Assembly (NCBI RefSeq): GCF_026262505.1
Contig: NC_067208.1
Span: 9,557,962 to 9,621,961 of the forward strand
Direction: 5' to 3'
Length of the DNA stretch: 64,000 nucleotides
Source of the DNA: Trichomonas vaginalis G3
Taxonomy: Eukaryota; Parabasalia; Trichomonadida; Trichomonadidae
The position numbers were made by a program, and so were the translations under genes. Shown one piece after another: positions 3,349 through 60,236 of this stretch (positions within the stretch are counted from its first letter, which is position 1; every line of letters starts with the position of its first letter). The notes under the pieces are model-generated. The model was not told the origin of the DNA and searched no databases. It was given only the letters and a program-made list of their open reading frames with translations.

Positions 3349-4008
3349 TTAGTTTATTGATTCAAACAAACAAATAAATGCAAATTTATTGATATTAAGA
3401 ATGCAAGTATTAATGTTTAGGTGAGAACAATCAACTGCATTAAATGTAAATTGATTTATAATGTTTAAATCCTTAATTTCTATCCACAAATCAACAATAA
3501 GGCATTGTCTGTTAAAGATTGGCATAAGAGGATAATAATCCTTGCTTATTGTTCCAATGGGATAATCCCAATTTACTGCATTGTTGCGTCCCACAAGGAG
3601 AGCAGAATTAGAATATGTTGATATCAATTGATGTAATCCACCAAATTCTAAGAAAGCTCCTTTCTTTTTAATTGTGTTAAATCCTGCTGGTTTTGGATTT
3701 GAAGTGTTGAAATGTTCTTCTTGGACAAATTCGATGTATTCTGGAATTTGTGGATATTCAAGAAGAAATGAATAATATTTTTGTGAACTTTTGGAGATTA
3801 AAAATTTTTCATCAATATAACGAATAAGAGAAAAGCAATTCTTCGAAAGTGAATAATTTGCTTCTAACTTACTTTCAAAATAACAATAGTTTGTATTTTG
3901 ATGGAATACTTTTAACCATAGTTGTCCATTAGCATCAGTAAAATATTCAAATTCAGATTTCTTCTTAATATTGTTATGTAAAACGTAAGGTTCATTTGAA
4001 TAAGCCAT
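3349..4008 (-). CDS. VFHxN-family protein, subfamily A (intact member)
   Basis: This 219-residue protein is the best intact member of a family repeated many times in the window. Landmarks in order are YVLHNNIKKK near the N terminus, LWLKVFHQNTNYCYFES (about 30-46), a Tyr/Ser/Asn-rich stretch, FLISKSSQKYYSFLLEYPQIP (about 69-89), GGLHQL, NWDYPIG (near 145), LWIEIKDLNIIN (about 175-186) and a hydrophobic C-terminal tail. There is no N-terminal signal peptide. The tail might anchor it to a membrane or be a GPI-type signal, but that is inference. The ATG is true (MAYSNEPYVLH) and the stop is TAA. I do not recognise a named domain. The MITE lies directly downstream. Function unknown. Confidence 0.65.
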   Translation of the reverse strand: MAYSNEPYVLHNNIKKKSEFEYFTDANGQLWLKVFHQNTNYCYFESKLEANYSLSKNCFSLIRYIDEKFLISKSSQKYYSFLLEYPQIPEYIEFVQEEHFNTSNPKPAGFNTIKKKGAFLEFGGLHQLISTYSNSALLVGRNNAVNWDYPIGTISKDYYPLMPIFNRQCLIVDLWIEIKDLNIINQFTFNAVDCSHLNINTCILNINKFAFICLFESIN

Positions 4009-4586: not shown

Positions 4587-6149
4587 TGTTGCATGCTAAG
4601 TAGTGTCAATGTGTAAACCTCTCAATTTTATCGTCGGGGAAGCAACACAATTCCCTCAAAAATATTGAAAAAATATAGAAAATAAAATGAATTAAGATGT
4701 ACTTAAAATGAGAAATAGATTATGATATTAGATTTTAGAAAAAACAGACTTTTGATATAACTTTTGAGAATCTCATATAAAAAAAAGCATTTAAAAATAA
4801 ATTTAAATATCTTATTTATTTTACTATTGTAAATATATTCTGAGATTTTTAGAAAAAAACACTTTTCATAAGTATTCAATATTTGAAAATACGGTCCAAA
4901 AAAAATAGATTCTCTTATATTTGCTTATATAAAAGGAGACTCTCTATCAGATGCGAATGCCTGAATTCAGCACCTCTGATAGAGAGTTTCCTCTTATATA
5001 AGCAAATCTTTTTCATTTGTTTTTGTTAATATAAAAACATCAAAATCTACCAATATGAGAAATTAAACCCTGCGAGGCACCAGTCTAGAACTGGCACTTC
5101 GCAGGGTTTAATTTCTCTTGACAAATGACAAAACTTGTTCGCAATTGTGAACCATTGCGAGCAAGTTTGCCAGATATCTGGAAGGAATTGCTCCTTATGA
5201 TATATGCATTGTAACTGTATATATCATAAAGAGCAATTCCTTCAATTAAACGCAAAAACTTGGTGCAATCGTTGCTGATTGCACCAAAGTTTTCGAACTT
5301 TCCCGAGGGAATTGGAGGGTGAGAGATACATAGTCTATCTATGTACCTCCCACCCTCCAAATCCCACTCTAAATGGGAGAAACTTTGTTCGCATGTTATC
5401 TTATTCAAACAAAGTTTCTCCCATTTAGAGAAGGAATAGGAGCCTACCAGGCACTGATATATAATCAGTGCTTTGTAGGCTCCTATTCCTAATAAAAATT
5501 TGAAAACTTTGGAGCATTTGATTATTGTATTTTGTCAAGAGAAATTCAACCCTGCGAAGTGCCAGTTCTAGACTGGTGCCTCGCAGGGTTTAATTTCTCA
5601 TATTGGTAGATTTTGATGTTTTTATATTAACAAAAACAAATGAAAAAGATTTGCTTATATAAGAGGAAACTCTCTATCAGAGGTGCTGAATTCAGGCATT
5701 CGCATCTGATAGAGAGTCTCCTTTTATATAAGCGAATATAAAAGAATCTATTCTTTTTTGGAGCGTATTTTCAAATATTGAATACTTATGAAAAGTGTTT
5801 TTCCTAAAAATTTAATATAATGCTTAGCACAATATATAAAATTAAAATATCTATAATTATTTTCTATATCACACTTTTCATTACACTTTGAAAAGTCTTC
5901 TCAAACTCTATTTTTAATTATTTTTTAGATATATCTCAAGTGTGATTATTCAAAAACTCATATAGACTATATTTATTTTTTTCATTCAAAAAATTATATG
6001 AGAATCTCAAATTAACTTTCAAATTTTTTATTTTAAAAACATATTAATAATCATATTTTAAGATACTTTTTCGCCCAAAAAATAATCGTACTTCCTCGAC
6101 GATTAATAGGCTCTCAATTTCTATCGTTGACACTACTTAGCATGCAACA
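4587..6149. mobile_element. Foldback element with an array of ten long hairpins
   Basis: The ends are inverted copies of TGTTGCATGCTAAGTAGTGT (4587 onward; inverse ending at 6149). Inside are ten consecutive long stem-loops at about 4921-5005, 5057-5117, 5131-5168, 5181-5243, 5255-5293, 5307-5365, 5367-5430, 5432-5490, 5539-5599 and 5651-5735. The first two hairpins are repeated inverted as the last two, so arms of about 270 bp (about 4855-5125 and 5530-5800) form a further large palindrome around six unique hairpins. The 107-residue frame at 5085-5408 runs through the palindromes and is not taken as a gene. A clear target duplication was not found: GCATGC next to each end is palindromic and ambiguous, and a 3-bp AAC is possible. 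I do not recognise a named family. Confidence 0.7.
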
Positions 6150-7842: not shown

Positions 7843-8175
7843 TTAGGATGGTATAATTAACCTTAAAATATAAAAATTATTAAAATTGCTATCTAAATAG
7901 TATCCTGGGATTTGTGGATATTCAAGAAGAAATGAGTAATATTTTTGTGAACCTTTAGTGATTAAAAACTTTTCATCAACTTCGCGAAGAATGGAATAAC
8001 AATTCTGATTTAATGAATAATTTGCTTCTCCTTTGCTATCAAAATAGCAAAACTTTGTGTTTTGATGATATACTTTTAGCCATTGTCTACCATGATCGTC
8101 TTGAAAATACTCATATCCAAATTTCTTCCTAATATTATTATGTAATACATATGAATTATTCGAATAATTGAACAT
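7843..8175 (-). pseudogene. VFHxN subfamily A fragment (N-terminal half)
   Basis: It starts at a true ATG (MFNYSNNSYVLHNNIRKKFG) and follows the family through WLKVYHQNTKFCYFDS and KYYSFLLEYPQIPGY. It then leaves the family and stops after 110 residues (normal length about 219). The second half of the protein is replaced by unrelated AT-rich sequence. It could be expressed as a short protein but is most simply a 3'-truncated pseudogene. Confidence 0.6.
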
Positions 8176-10400: not shown

Positions 10401-10868
10401 TTGGTATTAAATTATACTGAAGAACTATATGTTTTGCATGATAATGTTATCAAAATAAATGGTAATACAATTATTCAATACAATGGCTCTAATTGGCTCA
10501 AAATTTTTCACCAAAATACAAAGTTCTGTTATTTTGATAGTATCTCTCAAGCTCGATATTCCAAAGACGAGAATTGTTATTCAATCATAAAAACAATTAA
10601 TGACAAATATCGCTTGAGTGAAAATGATGAACTATTTTATTCCTTCCTTCTTGAATATCCACAAATTCCACAATACATATACTTTCATCAATCCACATTT
10701 AATTCTGATACTGCAGAATCATATAAACTCATTACTTCAAATGGAACATGGCCCCATTTTGGAGGATTACGTCATTATAACAAAGATATCCTTTTTTCCG
10801 GAGATGATCAGCCCAATTATTGGAATTATCCTGTTGGAGTCAAAAGTAAAGCTTATTATCCATTATTG
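10401..10868 (+). pseudogene. VFHxN subfamily A fragment without start codon or C terminus
   Basis: The frame opens right after a stop with VLNYTEELYVLHDN and has no ATG in the family position. It continues through WLKIFHQNTKFCYFDS, FYSFLLEYPQIPQYIYF and FGGLRHY to NYWNYPVGVKSKAYYPLLPF. There it is joined, at about 10868, to an inverted second copy of the same family (10866-11072). Both ends are therefore broken. Confidence 0.6.
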
Positions 10869-11072
10869 CCATTCGTCAACTTCGCGAAGAATGGAATAAC
10901 AATTTTTATTAAGTGAGTAATTTGCTTTATCTTTACTGTCAAAATAACAAAATTTTGTATTTTGATGGAAAACTTTTAACCATATTTTCCCATTATCCCC
11001 ATTAAAATATTCATATCCAAATTTCTTCCTAATATTGCTATGCAATACATATGAATCATTTGTATAATTCAA
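10866..11072 (-). pseudogene. VFHxN subfamily A fragment (first 67 codons)
   Basis: The minus strand reads NYTNDSYVLHSNIRKKFGYE, WLKVFHQNTKFCYFDSKDK and CYSILREVDE, then runs straight into the inverted fragment at 10401-10868. The codon at the family start position is TTG, not ATG. Confidence 0.6.
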
Positions 11073-15578: not shown

Positions 15579-15595
15579 TTTATTCTCATTAAAAT
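15579..15595. promoter_or_regulatory. Compact bidirectional promoter between capsid-like and fibre genes
   Basis: Only 17 bases separate the two divergent ATGs (minus at 15578, plus at 15596). The plus strand reads TATTCTCATTAAAAT, which contains TCATT, a fit to the trichomonad initiator TCA(C/T)(T/A). It is identical in element 2 (38008-38024). Confidence 0.5.
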
Positions 15596-18500
15596 ATGAC
15601 TATTGCTGCATATGCGTATGAAACAAATGAAGCAAGAAGAGCACATGAACTAGTAAACGAAAACTCAACTTTAACCATTGAAGGCAATGATTTAGTCATT
15701 GACGATGGAAAAACTAAAAAAGTCATTGATTTCGATACTTTTAACACTTATGACCCATTCATTACAACAAGCAAGGTTCCCATCATAAATGATGGAACGG
15801 TGCAATATATAAATTCTACAGTAGATGCCTCATTAGTGAAAGTATTAAATGTTCTCATTGAATTGTTAAAGAGCTTTCGATTTGACGACAACATTAAATG
15901 CCTAAAGAATTTAGTCATGAATGAGAAACAAATTCTCGGCGTTGCTGGTAGCAGTAATGATGTACACCTTATGACATTAGAATATTATAACGAACATAAA
16001 GATGAACTGAAAGGAGAGAAGGGTGACACCGGACCTCAAGGACCACAAGGAATACAAGGAATACAAGGAATACAAGGAATACAAGGACCTCAAGGCGAAA
16101 ACGGTTTGGATGGAAAGGATGGAAAGGATGGAAAAACTGCTAAATCATGGATATGGGACCTTATAAATACTGGTTTAACAGCTGCTTCATATGGAGTTCT
16201 TCAATACCAAATCGGAAAGATATGGGCGGTACTTGGTGAAGAAGTTTTAAATGACGTTAAAAATGCTTTGAACTTCATTTCAAATGGTTCGGATACTATT
16301 AAAACTTTATCTGGTTGGATGCAAGAAACAAGGAGTCAAATAGATACTGTAAGACGTATAGCAAACAATGCACGTACGGGATTGGATACTTTACGACAAG
16401 CACAAAATACACTAAAGGAAGCAAATGATATTCTTGGCTCAGTATCAGACATGCATGAAGATTGGCTTAAAGGTATTGACAAATCTTTAAAAAATCACAG
16501 TCAGTCTATTGCTGACTACAAGAAAAGTATAGATTTTTTACATAGTGCTATGGACGTACATGATGGAAGCATAAGGAACTTACTTAATGCTAACAATAAC
16601 TTACCAGGAACTATTAAAGCATTTATAAAGTCCTTTGTAAAACCCGGTGCTCTAACATTTAGGTCTTTGAGAGCAAGAGCATTGAAGTCAAGAGATGCAG
16701 AAACTCCAACAGAACCTACAGAAGGAACTGAAACAACAGAAACTCCAAAAGAACCACCAAAACCAACAGCTAATGAAATATTGTTCGAATATTTTCCAAG
16801 GTACTCTGTTCTCATTGCATACATTCAAGAAATACTTAAGAAAGCAGACTTGACTTTAGGAGATGATGAAAGTTCTGTATATCTTTCGTTCCAGTTTCAA
16901 ATAGCAGAACTTTTGAGACAGATATGCTTAATGTATGACAACATCTCTGATTTCACAAGATATGATGACGACCATGACCCCGAACATGGTGAAGAAGAAG
17001 TTTTACAAACATCCATTAAGACAGGAAAGGTTTTAACTCAAAGTCTCATTATTGACACCAAAGATGGCGAAGTGGACGTTCTTCAAGAGCTGAAGAAAAA
17101 TACTTCTTCGGGAGGTGGTGGTAGGCATGAACTTGAAATAAATGAGATAGAAGAGAAATTAGCCGAAAAAGCAGATAAAGAACATAAACACAATATCTCC
17201 GATATAAATGAACTTCAAGCTACATTAAATAGTAAAGCGGACAAAAATGAACTTGACGCAATGAACAAAGTTTTGAAATCTCATAAACACAACATCTCCG
17301 ATATAAATGAACTTCAAGCTACATTAAATAGTAAAGCGGACAAGAACCATGTTCATTATATAACTTCAGACGAACAGATTATAACGGACTACCATGGATA
17401 TTTAACACGAAGTGATGAAGCGAAGACAAAAAATGTTAATGAAAGAAGATATAAATACATTCGTGCTAAAGGTTATGACATAAGCTGTACTGTACAGTAT
17501 GATGTAGCTAAAGCACCAGAAGCATTTGGTTATACCGGTGAAATTTATGCCTCTACTTTCAATGTTAACGGTGTATTAGTTGAACCAAGATTTATGTTAA
17601 GAGTTAAGGCAAAAATAACGTTTGAAGATGCTATTAAAAGTAAAGCTGACAAAGTTGAACTCGAAGCAACGAACAAAGTTTTGAAATCTCATAAACACAA
17701 CATCTCCGATATAAATGAACTTCAAGCTACATTAGACAGTAAAGCTGACAAGAACCATACACATAAATCCTTCACTACTGTTAGAGCAGACGACATAATA
17801 TTGAACTTTGACCTTGGTTCAAGTGCACCATTAGAAAATCCAAGTACAAGCGTAAAAGATACTCTTAACAGTTTAGATAAGAGTTGCAGGAACATTGAAA
17901 GTCATGCCAGAAACTTTGAAGCATATGAACTACCGCAATGTTAGATAAGAAAGCAGACAAAACTTATGTAGATGAAGAACTAACAAAGAAATTTTCGAAA
18001 CCAGATACAATGACATTTACAACAGAAATTATAAATGGTGAACCAGCAACTCCATTTGAATTTGTTAGAGGTCTTCAACCAGATACTTTTGAATTTTTCT
18101 TGGATAATTCTATTGAACTAACATTACATTATAAAAGTGGAACAAATGCAACATTTCATCCGGGAGATACATTCCAAATGGTATTTAATGACATAAGTTC
18201 TTTAGAATATGTTTATAGAGTTATGAGCATATATGATTTAATATATCCTATAGGAGCTGTTTATACGTCTATGAATCCAATAAATCCAAACACTTTATTT
18301 GGTGGTAGATGGTATGAAATAGTTGACAGTTTTCCATTCTACACTAATACTCAGTCAATGAAGATGGGAGGTTCAAAGAAAATAGGTATTGAAAACCTTC
18401 CTTCACATATGCATAGGTTCAGTGGAAGAACATCTGTGGAAGGAAACCATTCACATTCAATAACAAAAAGAGGTTATACAAATCTTGCAGCGGGTTCGGA

Positions 18501-38007: not shown

Positions 38008-38024
38008 TTTATTCTCATTAAAAT

Positions 38025-40876
38025 ATGACTATTGCTGCATATGCGTATGAAACAAATGAAGCAAGAAGAGCACATGAACTAGTAAACGAAAACTCAACTT
38101 TAACCATTGAAGGCAATGATTTAGTCATTGACGATGGAAAAACTAAAAAAGTCATTGATTTCGATACTTTTAACACGTATGACCCATTCATTACAATAAG
38201 TAAAGTTCCCATCATAAATGATGGAACGGTGCAATATATAAATTCTACAGTAGATGCCTCATTAGTGAAAGTATTAAATGTTCTCATTGAATTGTTAAAG
38301 AGCTTTCGATTTGACGACAACATTAAATGCCTAAAGAATTTAGTCATGAATGAGAAACAAATTCTCGGCGTTGCTGGTAGCAGTAATGATGTACACCTTA
38401 TGACATTAGAATATTATAACGAACATAAAGATGAACTGAAAGGAGAGAAGGGTGACACCGGACCTCAAGGACCACAAGGAATACAAGGACCTCAAGGCGA
38501 AAACGGTTTGGATGGTGAAGATGGAAAGGATGGAAAAACTGCTAAATCATGGATATGGAACCTTATAAATACTGGCTTAAGAGCTGCTTCATATGGAGTT
38601 CTTCAATACCAAATCGGAAAGATATGGGCGGTACTTGGTGAAGAAGTTTTAAATGATGTTAAAAATGCTTTGAACTTCATTTCAAATGGTTCGGATACTA
38701 TTAAAACTTTATCTGGTTGGATGCAAGAAACAAGGAGTCAAATAGATACTGTAAGACGTATAGCAAACAATGCACGTACGGGATTGGATACTTTACGAGA
38801 AGCACAAAATACACTAAAGGAAGCAAATGATATTCTTGGCTCAGTATCAGACATGCATGAAGATTGGCTTAAAGGTATTGACAAATCTTTAAAAAATCAC
38901 AGTCAGTCTATTGCTGACTACAAGAAAAGTATAGATTTTTTACATAGTGCTATGGACGTACATGATGGAAGTATAAAGAACTTACTTAATGCTAACAATA
39001 ACTTACCAGGAACTATTAAAGCATTTATAAAGTCCTTTGTAAAACCTGGTGCTCTAACATTTAGGTCTTTGAGAGCAAGAGCATTGAAGTCAAGAGATGC
39101 AGAAACTCCAACAGAACCTACAGAAGGAACTGAAACAACAGAAACTCCAGAAGAACCACCAAAACCAACAGCTAATGAAATATTGTTCGAATATTTTCCA
39201 AGGTACTCTGTTCTCATTGCATACATTCAAGAAATACTTAAGAAAGCAGACTTGACTTTAGGAGATGATGAAAGTTCTGTATATCTTTCGTTCCAGTTTC
39301 AAATAGCAGAACTTTTGAGACAGATATGCTTAATGTATGACAACATCTCTGATTTCACAAGATATGATGACGACCATGACCCCGAACACGGTGAAGAAGA
39401 AGTTTTACAAACATCCATTAAGACAGGAAAGGTTTTAACTCAAAGTCTCATTATTGACACCAAAGATGGCGAAGTGGACGTTCTTCAAGAGCTGAAGAAA
39501 AATACTTCTTCGGGAGGTGGTGGTAGGCATGAACTTGAAATAAATGAGATAGAAGAGAAATTAGCCGAAAAAGCAGATAAAAACCATGTTCATTATATAA
39601 CTTCAGACGAACAGATTATAACGAACTACCATGGATATTTAACACAGGATGAACAAATAAGCACTGAAGATGTTAATGAAAGAAGATATAAATTCATTCG
39701 TGCTAAAGGTTATGACATAAGCTGTACTGTACAGTATGACACAGGTAAAGCACCAGAAGCATTTGGTTATAACAATGAAATTTATGCTTCATACTTCTTT
39801 GTTAACGGTGTATTAGTTGAACCAAGATTTACTTTGAGAGTTAAGGCAAAAATAACTTTTGAAGATGCTATTAAAAGTAAAGCCAGCAAAGATGAACTTG
39901 GAGCAATGAACAAAGTTTTGAAATCTCATAAACACAATATCTCCGATATAAATGAACTTCAAGCTACATTAAATAGTAAAGCTGACAAGAACCATACACA
40001 TGAATCCTTCACTACTGTTAGAGCAGACGACATAATATTGAACTATACCCTTGGTTCAAGTGCACCTTTAGAGAATCCGAGTACAAGCGTAAAAGATACA
40101 CTAAACTCCTTAAATAGTAAATGTATGAACATTGAAGGTCATGCCAGAAACTTTGAAACACATGAACTACCAGCAATGTTAGATAAGAAAGCTGACAAAG
40201 AACATACACATAAATCCTTCACTACTGTTAGAGCAGACGACATAATATTGAACTATGATTTGGGTTCAAGTGCACCTTTAGAGAATCCGAGTACAAGCGT
40301 AAAAGATACACTAAACAATTTAGATAACAGTTGCAGGAATATCGAAGATCATGCCAGAAACTTTGAAGCATATGAACTACCAACAATGTTAGATAAGAAA
40401 GCAGACAAAACAGAGCTTCAAACATTAAAGACTGAAATACTTCAAACATTATATCCTGTTGGTTCTTTATATACATCAATGAATTCAACAAATCCAGAAA
40501 CAGTTTTAGGTTTTGGTACGTGGAAACAGATTGTAGACAAATTCTTATACTGTGCTAACTCTTCAAAGCAAACGGGGGTTCGAAGAAAATTAAAGAAGCA
40601 AACCTTCCACCGCACACTCATACAGGAACTACAAACACAACAGGTAGTCATTCACATTCAATAACAAAAAGAGGTTATAGAAATCTTGCAGCAGGTTCGG
40701 ATAGACAGGGAATGCATAGATATGATATTTCAAGTGACCCAGTAGATTCAAGCGCAGGTATTTTCTGTGGAACCACAGGAAATCATTCACACACTTTCAC
40801 AACAAATCCAACAGGCTCGGGTGCAGATTATATGCCACCATTTGTGACTATATTCGCATGGTACCGCGTTCAATGA
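38025..40876 (+). CDS. Collagen-like fibre with tail-collar tip, second copy
   Basis: Same architecture as 15596-18681 but with three differences. There are ten Gly-X-Y triplets instead of 13. The DINELQATLNSKAD modules are arranged differently, with two copies of a block containing FTTVRADDIILNY and SSAPLENPSTSVKDTLN. The tip is distinct, beginning YPVGSLYTSMNSTNPETVLG and ending MPPFVTIFAWYRVQ. A frameshift near 40575 in a GGGGG run splits off the tip. It is otherwise open to TGA at 40874-40876. The tip keeps the His-rich HTHTG, HSHS and HSHT motifs. Confidence 0.8.
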
Positions 40877-43973: not shown

Positions 43974-46959
43974 TGTATGATTTAACAGAATATGAAGGCT
44001 TAACGATGTCAGATGTAAAGAAAGGCAAACCAAAAAAGAGACCATATAGAGATGAAAGCACACTGACAAATGACCAGAAAGCCATTTTGGAAGCTCTTAA
44101 GCAAACAGGAAACCCAGCACTTATAGAAAGCTTTTGGAAAGATAATGGTGAAAAGAAGTTTTATAAGAAGAGAAGCGGTCAGTTCTGGAAGTATCTTTGC
44201 ACATTACCTATAAATCTTGAACGCTACCAAATCTTCAATGAACTGAACAAAAGAACTGCAACACTTATGACAGAAGACAATTGTTTCGTTTATGCTTGCA
44301 TTCAGGCTGGAGTAATGAAGAAACTATTGACCACATGAGAGAAGTCATTCGTGTTAGAGACTTTCCTCAAAGTAAAGTACAAGAAATTTCTGACGCAACA
44401 GGTATAGCATTTAATGTTACCATTGGTTACTTCAATGACTCAAGACATAATGAAATAAAGAGATACATACCAAAAGAATGTAAAACTATTCGAACTATTG
44501 ACTTACTTCTTGTTGAAGACCACTACATGCTAAATGAAAGATTACCAATGACAACATATTTCATTCGCAACTATATAGAAATCTTGAAGGAGTGTGGTGG
44601 AATGAACATTGAGAAACAAATGAAGATTTATACAAAGAGAAAGAACAAATATGTAGTTCGTTATGATAGAACAACACCACTATGGGATGTTATGAAAACA
44701 TTGTGGGAGTGCAAATATTTCGAACCTATTTCTTATGGAGAACTTTTCACATATACGACTGACTTATATAAACAGAACCTTGCACCATTTAAAGATTTGA
44801 CATATGCTCCAAAGTTTTGTGTACAACTGAAGAAGAAAGCCGAGTCAAAAGAAGTAAATAAAAATAAGTGCAAGTTCATTCCTGAGCACGTTTTCTTTGC
44901 TGACTTTGAGTGTAGCACAGACGGCTTTCATAAAGCTTTTAACATCTGTTATGACAGTGAAGATGGTTCAGTGAGTGAAAGCATTTGGGGTCAGAACTGT
45001 GCAACAGAATTTTTGGAACGACTTCCTGACAAGAGTTTAATATATTTCCATAACCTCAGTTATGATATAAACTTCATCTTAAGACACATGACAGAAGTGA
45101 AAGGAACTCCCATCATTAAAGGTTCACGAACAATGCAAATAACTGGCTTATATAAAGGAAGGGCAATTATTATAAAAGACTCTTACAGTGTTATAAATAA
45201 GAAACTTAAACTATTTCCTGCTATGTTTAACTTACAAACAGGACCGAAAGAAGTATTTCCATATAACTACTACAGCAGTGTTTTGTTAGCAAATGACAAC
45301 AGAACTGGTGTCATTTCTGAAGCATGTAAGTTTATCCGGGATGCAGATACATTCATGAAAAACATAGATTCCATCAAAGGTTGCAGAATAGATGAAAACC
45401 ACTTCGACTTAGAAAAGTATAGCACATTTTATTGCAAACAAGATGTAAGAATTTTAAGAGAAGGTTTTGTTAAGTTCCGCAATGACATATTGAAAGAATT
45501 TGATTTAAACGTTTATGACTACGTTAGTATTTGTTCAATTGCTAACAAATTATTTGAGAACAGAGTGTACTTCCCGAATGGAAATTTATATGACCTCTCA
45601 AATAAACCAAGAGAATTTATTTCACGCTGTATTCAAGGTGGAAGATGTATGTGTCAGATAACATTAAACAAAAGAGCGAAAAGAAACTCATTGCTGACTT
45701 CGACGCTGTTTCATTATATCCATCAGCTATAGCAAGACTTTATACTTTAGAAGGTATTCCAAAGGTTATGAAGAAAGAAATGTTAAGCACAGAGTATCTC
45801 ATGAGACATTTATTCGATGACGACCAACAGGAACCCATTGGTGAAAAGTTTATGTCTGGCTTCTTTGTTCTCATTAAGATAACAGAGATTGGAATACATA
45901 GACACTTTCCTTTAATAGTTTGTGACCCTGAACTAAATCCAGAACTTAACGTTCCCAGAAGTTCAAACACTTGCTGTTTAATGTATGTTGACCATATAAC
46001 ATTACAAGACCTCATAAAATATCAAGGTGTCAAATGTGAAGTGTTGCAAGGATACTATTACGATGGAAACAGAGATATTAGAATAAGAGATGAAGTAAAG
46101 AAGTTGTTTGAGTTAAGGTTAAAGTATAAGAAAGAAGGAAATCCTTTGCAAGAAAATATAAAGCTCATTCTGAACAGTATTTATGGCAAAACTATTCTAT
46201 CTCCTATTGAGTCAAAAATAACCATAGTAAATGACAAAGATGCTATAAGATATGCCATCAGAAACTACAACCATATAGTGAAGTTCGAAGGTTTGGATGG
46301 TTCAGATAAAACTATTTTCAAGCTAACGAAAAGCATTTGCAGACACTTTAACTTCTGTCCACTTGGTGTTAACATTCTGTCTATGTCGAAGAGAATAATG
46401 TGTGAAGTATTCTGTACTGCTGAAGACTTAGGAATGGACATCTTTTATAGCGATACGGACAGTATGCATCTCTACAATGAAGATATCCCTCGTTTAGCTG
46501 AAGAGTTTGAGAAACGTTATGGAAGAGTTCTCATTGGTAAAAAACCTTGGTCAATTTCATAGCGACTTTGCAGAAATCACACCTGGAAAACAAAGTTTAG
46601 CATACAAGTCAATATTTTGTGGAAAGAAGACTTACATAGACTTACTCACGAATGATTTAAATGAAGTTGCATTTCACTGCAGAATGAAAGGCGTGAAGCA
46701 AGATGTTATTGCTTTAACCGCTAATGAAATGTTTCCTGACTCTGTTCAGTGTTTCTATGATGAAGATAAAGGTTTAATGGTTCCGCAAGGAACATATGAC
46801 AAAGACTCTGAGTTCAGTTTAATGAAACTTTACAAAGCACTTTATGACGGTCAAGAGATTGGATTTGACTTATGTAAGTCATGTCAACCTTGCTTTGAAG
46901 AGAAGTTTAACTTCTCAATAACGACTAAAACAAGCTTTATTCGTAAGTTGAAGTTCTGA
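43974..46959 (+). CDS. Protein-primed DNA polymerase B, second copy (frameshifted)
   Basis: The same polymerase as at 24479, with all motifs visible: FADFECS, HNLSYDINF, YCKQD, DAVSLYPSA, LILNSIYGKT and YSDTDSMH. Single-base losses or gains near 44313 (A), 45651 (T) and 46541 (A) divide it into four frames. The C terminus is intact here (CFEEKFNFSITTKTSFIRKL) to the TGA at 46957-46959, showing the proper end of the protein. Motif C region ELGMDIFYSDTD-like differs from element 1 (GLQIFYQDTD), a patch of true divergence. Confidence 0.85.
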
Positions 46960-55395: not shown

Positions 55396-55477
55396 TGGTA
55401 CCACTGGGGTTTGAACACAGGCACCTCACGGTAATGGGGCTTAAATCTATCGCCTTAGACCACTCGGCCATAGTACC
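55396..55477 (-). tRNA. tRNA-Leu-like gene (anticodon TAA), imperfect stems
   Basis: Minus strand: acceptor GGTACTA pairs with TGGTACC (one G-U), discriminator A. The D arm is GCCGAGTGGTCTAAGGC. The anticodon loop TTTAAGC has TAA (Leu, with G37). There is a 13-nt variable arm with a short ACC/GGT stem, as in class II tRNAs, and the T loop is TTCAAAC. A run of seven T follows directly, a Pol III terminator. However, the anticodon stem ATAGA/CCCAT has two A-C mismatches, and the T stem CTGTG/CCCAG has one mismatch (U-C). The gene may be decaying or edited, but the acceptor and terminator are intact. No intron. Confidence 0.65.
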
Positions 55478-58895: not shown

Positions 58896-60218
58896 TTATT
58901 CGTTTTCTTCGCTTTCTTGCTGTTCTATGCCAGCTGTTTCGTACATTTCATATTCCTGTATTAGATCAGCCATGTTAGAACGTGCTTCATCGAATTCCAC
59001 AGCATCTAAGCCTTCATTAACGAACCAATGAACAAAAGCTCGACGTGAATACATCTTTTGGAATTGAGAATCGACCCTTTTGAAAAGATCACAAAATGCT
59101 GTGGTGTTTCCAATGAATGTCGCCGCCACTTTGAGACCTGGTGGTGGTATGTCACAAATTGCTGATTTGAAGTTTGATGGTATCCAATCAACAAAATATG
59201 ATGAATTACGTGATTGAATGCATGCTAATTGCTCATCGACTGTCAGTGGGGAAATGCGGCCACGAAAATGTGCAGAGGCAGTAAAGAAAACACCTCTGCG
59301 AGGATCACATGCTGCCATTAGGTTCTTTGCATCGAAAAGTTGAGATGAAATCTCACAAACCGAATTGGAAATGTATCGTTGTGATCCACGTGAATAACGC
59401 GGAGCAAAACCAACTACGAAGAAATGTAAACGTGGGAATGGAACAAGGTTTACAGCAAGTTTTCGGAGGTCTGAGTTGAGCTGACCTGGGAATCTGAGGG
59501 AACAAGTAGTTCCAGACATGACCATTGAAACCAAATGGTTGAGATCTCCATATGTTGGATTTGTAAGCTTAAGTGTACGGAAGCATATATCATAAAGAGT
59601 TTCGTTATCAATGCAAAAGACTTCATCGGAAGCTTCAACAAGTTGATCAACTGAAAGCATACAGTTGTATGGTTCAACAACTGTATCGGATACCTTTGGA
59701 GATGGAATAATTGAATATGTATTTAAAATTCTATCTGGATATTCTTCTCGTAATTTATTTAATAATAGTGTTCCAAGTCCAGAACCTGTTCCACCTCCTA
59801 AAGAATGAACAAGCTGAAACCCTTGTAAACATTCGCATGATTCGGCTTCTTTTCTGATGATATCGATGATTTGATCACAAAGTTCCTGTCCTTCTGTGTA
59901 ATATCCTTTGGCCCAATTGTTTCCTGCACCTGATTGACCGAAAATGAAGTTGTCAGGACGAAATAGCTGTCCGTATTGACCTGCTCGGACTGAATCCATC
60001 GTTCCTGGTTCCATATCTACAAGAACGGCACGAGGAACATATCTAGTGTTTATAGCTTCATTGAAATATACGTTGATATTTTCAAGTTGAAGATCTGAAT
60101 CTCCATAGTATTTTCCAGTTGGGTCCACTCCATGTTCATCTGAAACAACTTCCCAGAACTTTGTACCGATTTGGTTACCACACTGTCCAGCTTGGATGTG
60201 CACTATTTCACGAACCAT
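58896..60218 (-). CDS. Beta-tubulin
   Basis: 440 residues, full length, no intron. GTP-binding signature [29 protein letters not shown] at the N terminus, [20 protein letters not shown], and acidic tail EQQESEENE. With alpha-tubulin it forms microtubules of flagella, axostyle and spindle. Oddities: the protein begins MVREIVHI with an extra Val, instead of the universal MREI that mediates tubulin mRNA autoregulation. The residue equivalent to Phe167 is Tyr (TYSIIPSPK), while Glu198 and Phe200 equivalents are kept (DEVFCIDNE). The ATG is preceded by TCATAATTTTTA, with TCATA matching the trichomonad initiator. It is clearly diverged from typical beta-tubulins and may be a minor paralogue. Confidence 0.97.
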
Positions 60219-60236
60219 TAAAAATTATGATTTTTG
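60219..60236 (-). promoter_or_regulatory. Initiator-like element of the beta-tubulin gene
   Basis: Minus strand AATCATAATTTTTA directly before the ATG: TCATA fits the trichomonad Inr consensus TCA(C/T)(T/A), with the predicted start about ten bases upstream of the ATG, normal for the very short 5' leaders of these protists. Confidence 0.6.

Follow-up and report, generated by a model that had tools for sequence, protein, structure and literature searches.

Parabasalids reportedly harbor a superfamily of DNA transposons, IS481EU, described by Kojima and Bao. As far as the main text of a 2023 report goes (PMC10045372), IS481EU elements have TNT..AYA termini, terminal inverted repeats (TIRs) mostly below 50 bp, and target duplications of about 4, 15, or 25 bp, and they include non-autonomous families without a known partner. 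The element analyzed here lies in a 64,000-nucleotide stretch of DNA from Trichomonas vaginalis G3 (the window, i.e., the whole stretch that was analyzed) and resembles IS481EU in its parabasalid host, in its TGT..ACA termini with a 23-bp TIR, in the 4-bp duplications found with 26 of 41 elements (the window copy has 3 bp only), and in the IS481-like DDE transposase of an autonomous partner, L083 (the window copy is gene-less). It differs, in a comparison confined to the text of PMC10045372, by an array of two types of hairpins and by the block-wise growth of this array; the main text of that report has 0 occurrences of “hairpin” or “palindrom”.

Three other systems are comparable in part. The REP/BIME sequences and their REP-associated tyrosine transposases, in the portions of the sources at hand (PMC2817692, PMC8266576), likewise combine alternating palindromes tied to a transposase with non-autonomous dispersal; however, they are bacterial and have a tyrosine (HUH) transposase, whereas the enzyme here has a DDE integrase fold. 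Foldback elements and MITEs (e.g., Tm1, in the part of PMC3169594 consulted) share inverted repeats and the lack of genes, but here the arms are internal and secondary and the array belongs to a gene-bearing element. Long inverted repeats forming the element ends define a foldback element; the window element has a perfect TIR of only 23 bp, and its large inverted arms start ∼268 bp inside its ends. The claimed CRISPR-like loci of T. vaginalis are given, in the available part of their description (PMC10696477), as 600–1,500 bp long with repeated sequences of 20–60 bp and inverted repeats, and some of them may be hairpin arrays; the arrays here, in contrast, do not consist of identical repeats separated by unique spacers. 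A search of the PMC10696477 text for short words from the hairpin cores gave no match, and no repeat sequences were seen in it. The superfamily is already known; in agreement with the earlier note on this DNA, which knew of no described element with such a layout, no account of such hairpin arrays was found in the literature searched.

The element in the window

The element is a whole non-autonomous IS481EU-like transposon copy of 1,563 bp (4587..6149), TIR-bounded and multicopy, and the interval singled out in the earlier note runs exactly from TIR to TIR. The TIRs are 23 bp long and match each other as inverted repeats at 100%; the left one (4587..4609, plus strand) reads TGTTGCATGCTAAGTAGTGTCAA and is followed by TGTGTAAACC, and the right one (6127..6149, minus strand) is followed by CGATAG. 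A subterminal CAATTCCCTC (4648..4657, plus strand) has the letters that form the base of the type-a hairpins described below (GAGGGAATTG..CAATTCCCTC). The flanks of this copy (..GAAC / AACA..) hold only a 3-bp direct repeat (AAC) and no 4-bp duplication. No transposase gene is present, and the longest listed open frame (107 aa) spans hairpins. Open frames cross parts of the array, but a coding function was dropped, as the repeat block of 250–254 bp is not a multiple of three, so that its copies shift the frame.

The ten consecutive stem-loops of about 38–85 nt in 815 bp that had been noticed earlier were measured as ten hairpins of 37–89 nt each, occupying ∼819 bp (4919–5737). From left to right these are h1 (4919..5007, 89 nt), h2 (type a, 5057..5117), h3 (type b with the core AAACTT, 5131..5168, 38 nt), h4 (type a, 5181..5243), h5 (type b, 5256..5292, 37 nt), h6 (type a, 5307..5365), h7 (type b, 5367..5430), h8 (type a, 5432..5490), and the mirror copies of h2 and h1, namely h2’ (5539..5599) and h1’ (5649..5737). 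The super-palindrome that the outer two pairs were said to form around six hairpins was recovered by an inverted-repeat search: its first arm (4855..5131) carries h1 and h2, its second, inverted arm (5525..5802) carries h2’ and h1’, and the arms are 97% complementary across 234 nt (4898–5131 against 5525–5758) and 98% across 49 nt (4855–4903 against 5754–5802). Folding of the region, as the earlier note had suggested, gave z = −22.1 as DNA and z = −25.6 as RNA for the six inner hairpins (5120–5500), and since 0 of 100 shuffles folded as well, chance is ruled out for these six. A scan of the whole 64-kb window yielded eight stems, every one within the ten hairpins, the short h3 and h5 being below its threshold.

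Several other features of the window were noted in passing. Two long frames (15593–17941 and 38022–40661) start with the same letters (NMTIAAYAYETNEARRAHELVNENS..), and a third (45606–46559) has the motif DFDAVSLYPS, which we take to be DNA polymerase B-like; judged by their sequences, the three suggest virus-like Maverick/Polinton elements in the window. A minus-strand frame (58899–60224) presumably resembles beta-tubulin, and a tRNA-Leu gene lies on the minus strand at 55396–55477. Frames at 3349–4008, 7843–8175, and 10401–10916 have common motifs (YVLH.N..K..., WLK..HQNT..CYF) and are probably fragments, next to the element, of a multicopy protein family.

Dispersed copies and transposase-bearing relatives

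The earlier note had listed structured mobile DNA among its readings, and this one held. In the T. vaginalis genome examined (180.85 Mb, six large contigs), the search for further copies found 24 other full-length copies that are 96–99% identical to the window copy (40 scored of 1,225 candidates), giving an alignment set of 25 copies, the window copy included, of 1,559–1,565 bp. The TIR of the window family occurs at ∼57 places per strand (57 + 57, 57 + 56, and 57 + 60 with degenerate patterns); we adopted this figure because a count allowing up to 3 mismatches (264 + 258) was suspected of counting single places repeatedly. Of the first 30 TIR places (L009–L038), 29 fall within array-holding elements, by alignment or by overlap with the copies from the genome search, the link of L031 to its array (L032) being inferred across ∼24 kb of inserted DNA. 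Among 41 elements with TIRs at both ends, taken from all families, 26 have an exact 4-bp target duplication (shuffles average 1.2); of the rest, one (L086) has an exact 18-bp repeat and none was found in 12, and duplications of 15 or 25 bp did not turn up in any of the 41. Separately, other elements have inserted into copies of this one with border repeats of 13–15 bp, close to a length class reported for IS481EU; the repeated letters are window-element positions 171–185, on both sides of the insert, in L066/L022 and 186–198 in L079. The flank outside the TIR in L081 (1–706) is itself a large palindrome of ∼706 bp that matches its own reverse complement at 95%.

A variant of the window-family TIR led to a second family, named A, of which a complete 2,467-bp element (L083:709-3175) has the TIR TGTTGCATGCTAAGTTCGGTCAA at both ends and the duplication TTTT. 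It carries an open frame of 353 aa, with eleven hairpins between the stop codon and the far TIR. The protein matches the integrase-core Pfam families rva_4 (E 2.8e-10) and rve_3 above the cut-off and rve just below it. A near-identical database copy (P0001) has the IS481 transposase as its best NCBIfam match (97.8 bits, against a curated cut-off of 224), and its AlphaFold2 model, with a mean pLDDT of 83.9, has matches among the retroviral integrases of the PDB. D166, D223, and E258 are invariant across 16 aligned transposase proteins.

From 122 scored protein matches in the genome, one site was inspected for each of four further lineages. In L092 (lineage B, contig C1; 49% identity to the A transposase), seven hairpins follow the gene ahead of a TIR. 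In L091 (contig C3; 62% identity), the gene is followed, 2.2 kb further downstream, by an array and a TIR of the window family, and a 947-bp copy is nested in the interval, so that the distance from gene to array is ∼1.3 kb once this copy is subtracted; the start of the gene and the far end were lost to another repeat. The far TIR was found neither for L091 nor for L092. L091 is likely the gene-bearing form of the window family, with the reservation that its gene and its array may be separate elements. If L091 is one element, the end types are swapped, as the array-side TIR is followed by CGATAG in family A and by TGTGTAAACC in L091. The orientation of the window copy is ambiguous, its ends matching family A in the plus orientation and L091 suggesting minus. 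At the single sites inspected for L093 (32%) and L094 (40%), no array was found within ∼1.4 kb downstream or 0.7–0.9 kb upstream, the L094 site having only a few AT-rich stems of 15 bp. Viral contigs held one distant relative (L095). A recurring frame (MNFTKPPLPFFGNKS.CKDIIL..; L084 3192–4007, L031 1926–2378, L099 365–997), which presumably resembles a DNA adenine methylase, adjoins or lies near several elements.

These relatives bear on whether the window element could be a foldback MITE of the usual kind or a palindrome that formed once by accident, a possibility to which its non-coding, TIR-bounded nature and large internal inverted repeat lend some appeal. Arrays without mirror arms follow the transposase genes of L083 and L092, which contradicts it, and we regard it as very improbable; a local accident of palindrome amplification, the outcome that the earlier note had set against its own readings, is rejected, as many copies and transposase-bearing relatives hold the array.

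Hairpin types, array changes, and stem pairing

The stems had been described earlier as carrying unrelated sequences, which did not stand: h3–h8 of the window copy alternate (b, a, b, a, b, a) between two recurring types with cores of their own. Type-a hairpins are mostly 51–65 nt, and many of them have GAGGTA close to the loop and a base that reads GGAATTG; type-b hairpins are mostly 56–58 nt, with AAACTT mostly nine bases off an eight-base loop. The arm columns AAA, one T, and AAT are invariant in 14 type-b hairpins. The subterminal CAATTCCYTC, the base of the type-a stems, is present in the left ends of two families and is inexact at the other end of the window element and in L092. In L086, a type-a hairpin (element position 1125–1183) contains TGAGGTAGT, which we assume to be the start of the let-7 microRNA and take as a coincidence. 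The number of hairpins per element ranges from one (L103) through five (L100–L102, L104), seven (L087, L092), ten (window), eleven (L083), at least 14 (L091), 15 (L088), and 16 (L086) to 18 (L073). L105, picked by its TIR, showed neither a partner TIR nor a hairpin in 1.35 kb, and L106 has another type of array, L110 a cut-off array, and L111 no array.

The arrays change in blocks. A 254-bp block with h5–h8 (5255..5508 in the window) is present two and three times in longer copies of ∼1,811 and ∼2,065 bp, respectively, and L103 corresponds to the 948-bp family minus 250 bp, with four hairpins removed. A stretch of 311 bp is 92% identical, and inverted, between families A and B, whose transposases are 49% identical, and L102 carries a hairpin arm variant otherwise found in L092. 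From these ∼250-bp copy differences, the inverted stretch, and the arm variant, array blocks are gained, lost, and turned, and are probably exchanged. The arm with h1 and h2 was found once in L091, on the TIR side, and twice in the window element, in opposite orientations; from the single arm in L091 we infer that, when the transposase gene was lost, one end of the array was duplicated in inverted orientation, giving the super-palindrome of the window element.

Changes in ∼250-bp blocks, with sequences that seem exchanged or inverted between families, are also in line with an array that has no function, in which template switching would make and repair the palindromes and unequal recombination between identical hairpins would multiply them. 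Template switching can create and maintain stems, according to the part of the source consulted (PMC8794818). We consider this explanation unlikely, if readily conceivable; the core (mostly AAACTT) is at a fixed distance from the loop in type-b hairpins of all three families, which stands against it, and so do the changes within the stems.

Pairing is kept despite changes of letters. The compensating structure claimed earlier was borne out in 14 distinct type-b hairpins (gap-free alignment), where 97.7% of 266 cells pair and, in 12 of the 19 pairs, both partners have changed; sliding the partner by 1–3 columns leaves at most 57.1% paired. Likewise, 510 of 567 cells are Watson-Crick in 27 type-a hairpins (shuffle mean 331), all of these figures being for related sequences chosen as palindromes. 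The pairing set comprised 15 of 23 type-b and 27 of 34 type-a hairpins, the others being too short, of other length parity, or identical after trimming; four h1-type hairpins were outside the set, and 14 of the 15 type-b hairpins were used for the cell and column counts. The plainest example is the additional 254-bp block in the longer copies, which shares 83% identity with the standard one: most of the letters that differ in h5, h6, and h7 are matched by a change in the other arm, and h8 is identical.

In the 25 near-identical, recent copies, 17 stem changes of the six inner hairpins affect one side only and 0 are compensated, whereas unbiased arm-to-arm copying would predict ∼15 compensated pairs. 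This disfavors, albeit on small numbers, the idea that the stems are conserved through repair of one arm from the other, and the contrast with the predicted ∼15 pairs favors constraint on the stems rather than rapid repair by template switching. Variant alleles are rarer in the inner stems (16 of 282 sites) than in the flanks (63 of 510), a deficit that persists when split by base class (p = 0.0003 at G+C sites; p = 0.047 at A+T sites). A lower mutation rate in the stems may account for this deficit instead, given the low counts and the near-neutrality expected of private variants.

Possible roles of the array

The stability of the stems (mostly 22–30 bp with short loops) fits an array that is transcribed and whose RNA hairpins are the product, i.e., small-RNA precursors or decoys for an RNase III or PIWI-like pathway. 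The parasite is described, in the part of the source consulted (PMC7845603), as having small RNAs of 34 nt along with a putative RNase III and two AGO proteins that are PIWI-like, and a palindrome yields the same hairpin from both strands. Selection on one RNA strand, however, gets no support, as G-T and A-C mismatches are about equally frequent: 31 G-T against 26 A-C, 25 against 32 with the window family turned round, and 15 against 16 in families A and B alone, where the orientation is certain. This absence of a G-U excess in any orientation of the window family speaks against the RNA explanation, and the symmetry suits a role as DNA in cis as well as an array without function. An earlier count over 48 distinct hairpins (42 G-T against 29 A-C, p = 0.15), in which stem ends set by RNA folding favor G-T at those ends, is superseded by this recount. 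No Rfam family was matched at its gathering score (best 43.5 bits against 86 in the window; none in L083 and L092); with this, and with wobble pairs not enriched on either strand, the hpRNA or miRNA-like cluster raised in the earlier note found no backing.

The genomic places of the stem words were weighed in the same way. The type-a word occurs at 1,105 places (564 + 541), and among the 100 of these that were listed, 90 are in perfect hairpins, 9 are near another copy, and 1 is alone, which argues against targets elsewhere for an RNA. Among the 100 listed of 717 places of the type-b word, 76 fall inside perfect hairpins and a further 14 lie close to another copy, which points the same way, but 10 are alone, so that outside targets are possible. 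The array is also retained in gene-less copies even though an RNA could work in trans, which counts against an RNA product. Taken with its evidence on both sides, we judge an RNA role of the array quite unlikely.

Our preferred reading, held tentatively as something a little short of probable, is that the window copy is a non-autonomous IS481EU-like transposon, that in its relatives a gene for an integrase-type transposase precedes the same kind of two-type array, and that the array acts in cis as DNA, its clustered palindromes being predicted sites for the transposase or a host protein. Arrays are present in three kinds of transposase-less derivatives (the window family, the L086 type, and the 948-bp family). 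Of 32 places on C1 (below 20.2 Mb) with an exact A-type TIR, 31 lie within 2 kb of the type-a stem word, compared with 0.2 for random places; they come mainly from one or two families and are not 32 independent cases. Non-autonomous elements usually retain what is needed in cis. A cis role as DNA is favored because of these two observations and this rule, together with the subterminal motif that equals the base of the type-a stems. Binding of the candidate reader, either the transposase or a host protein, to the palindromes or to extruded cruciforms would aid mobilization, and copies bearing the array would be mobilized better, so that the array would be kept.

Certain observations temper the role in cis. 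L103, which is 699 bp long, has a clean 4-bp duplication and a single hairpin, and the full array is therefore not indispensable. The array-less sites of the two more distant lineages (L093, L094), the distance between gene and array in L091, and the inexact subterminal motif at the other end of the window element and in L092 also count against this role. The presence of the array within families that each stem from one founder needs no selection, and an RNA hairpin from either strand would be orientation-independent just as a DNA palindrome is. A stronger version of the cis reading, which we hold to be possible if doubtful, is that of a clade of DDE integrase-type transposons in which an array that expands by itself and alternates between two palindrome types would be read as folded DNA (cruciform) and is predicted to be a cis-acting enhancer of transposition; if true, it would be a mobile DNA module selected for its structure, of a kind that no DDE transposon is known to carry.

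In genomes, long perfect palindromes are as a rule unstable, yet T. vaginalis has hundreds of them, with arms that are complementary across large sequence divergence. The natural variants of the array, with 1 to 18 hairpins, offer a direct test of three matters on which the arguments are usually indirect: of how stem pairing persists (selection or template switching), of folded DNA as a possible cis signal for a DDE transposase, and of how the small-RNA machinery of the parasite treats hairpin-rich mobile DNA.
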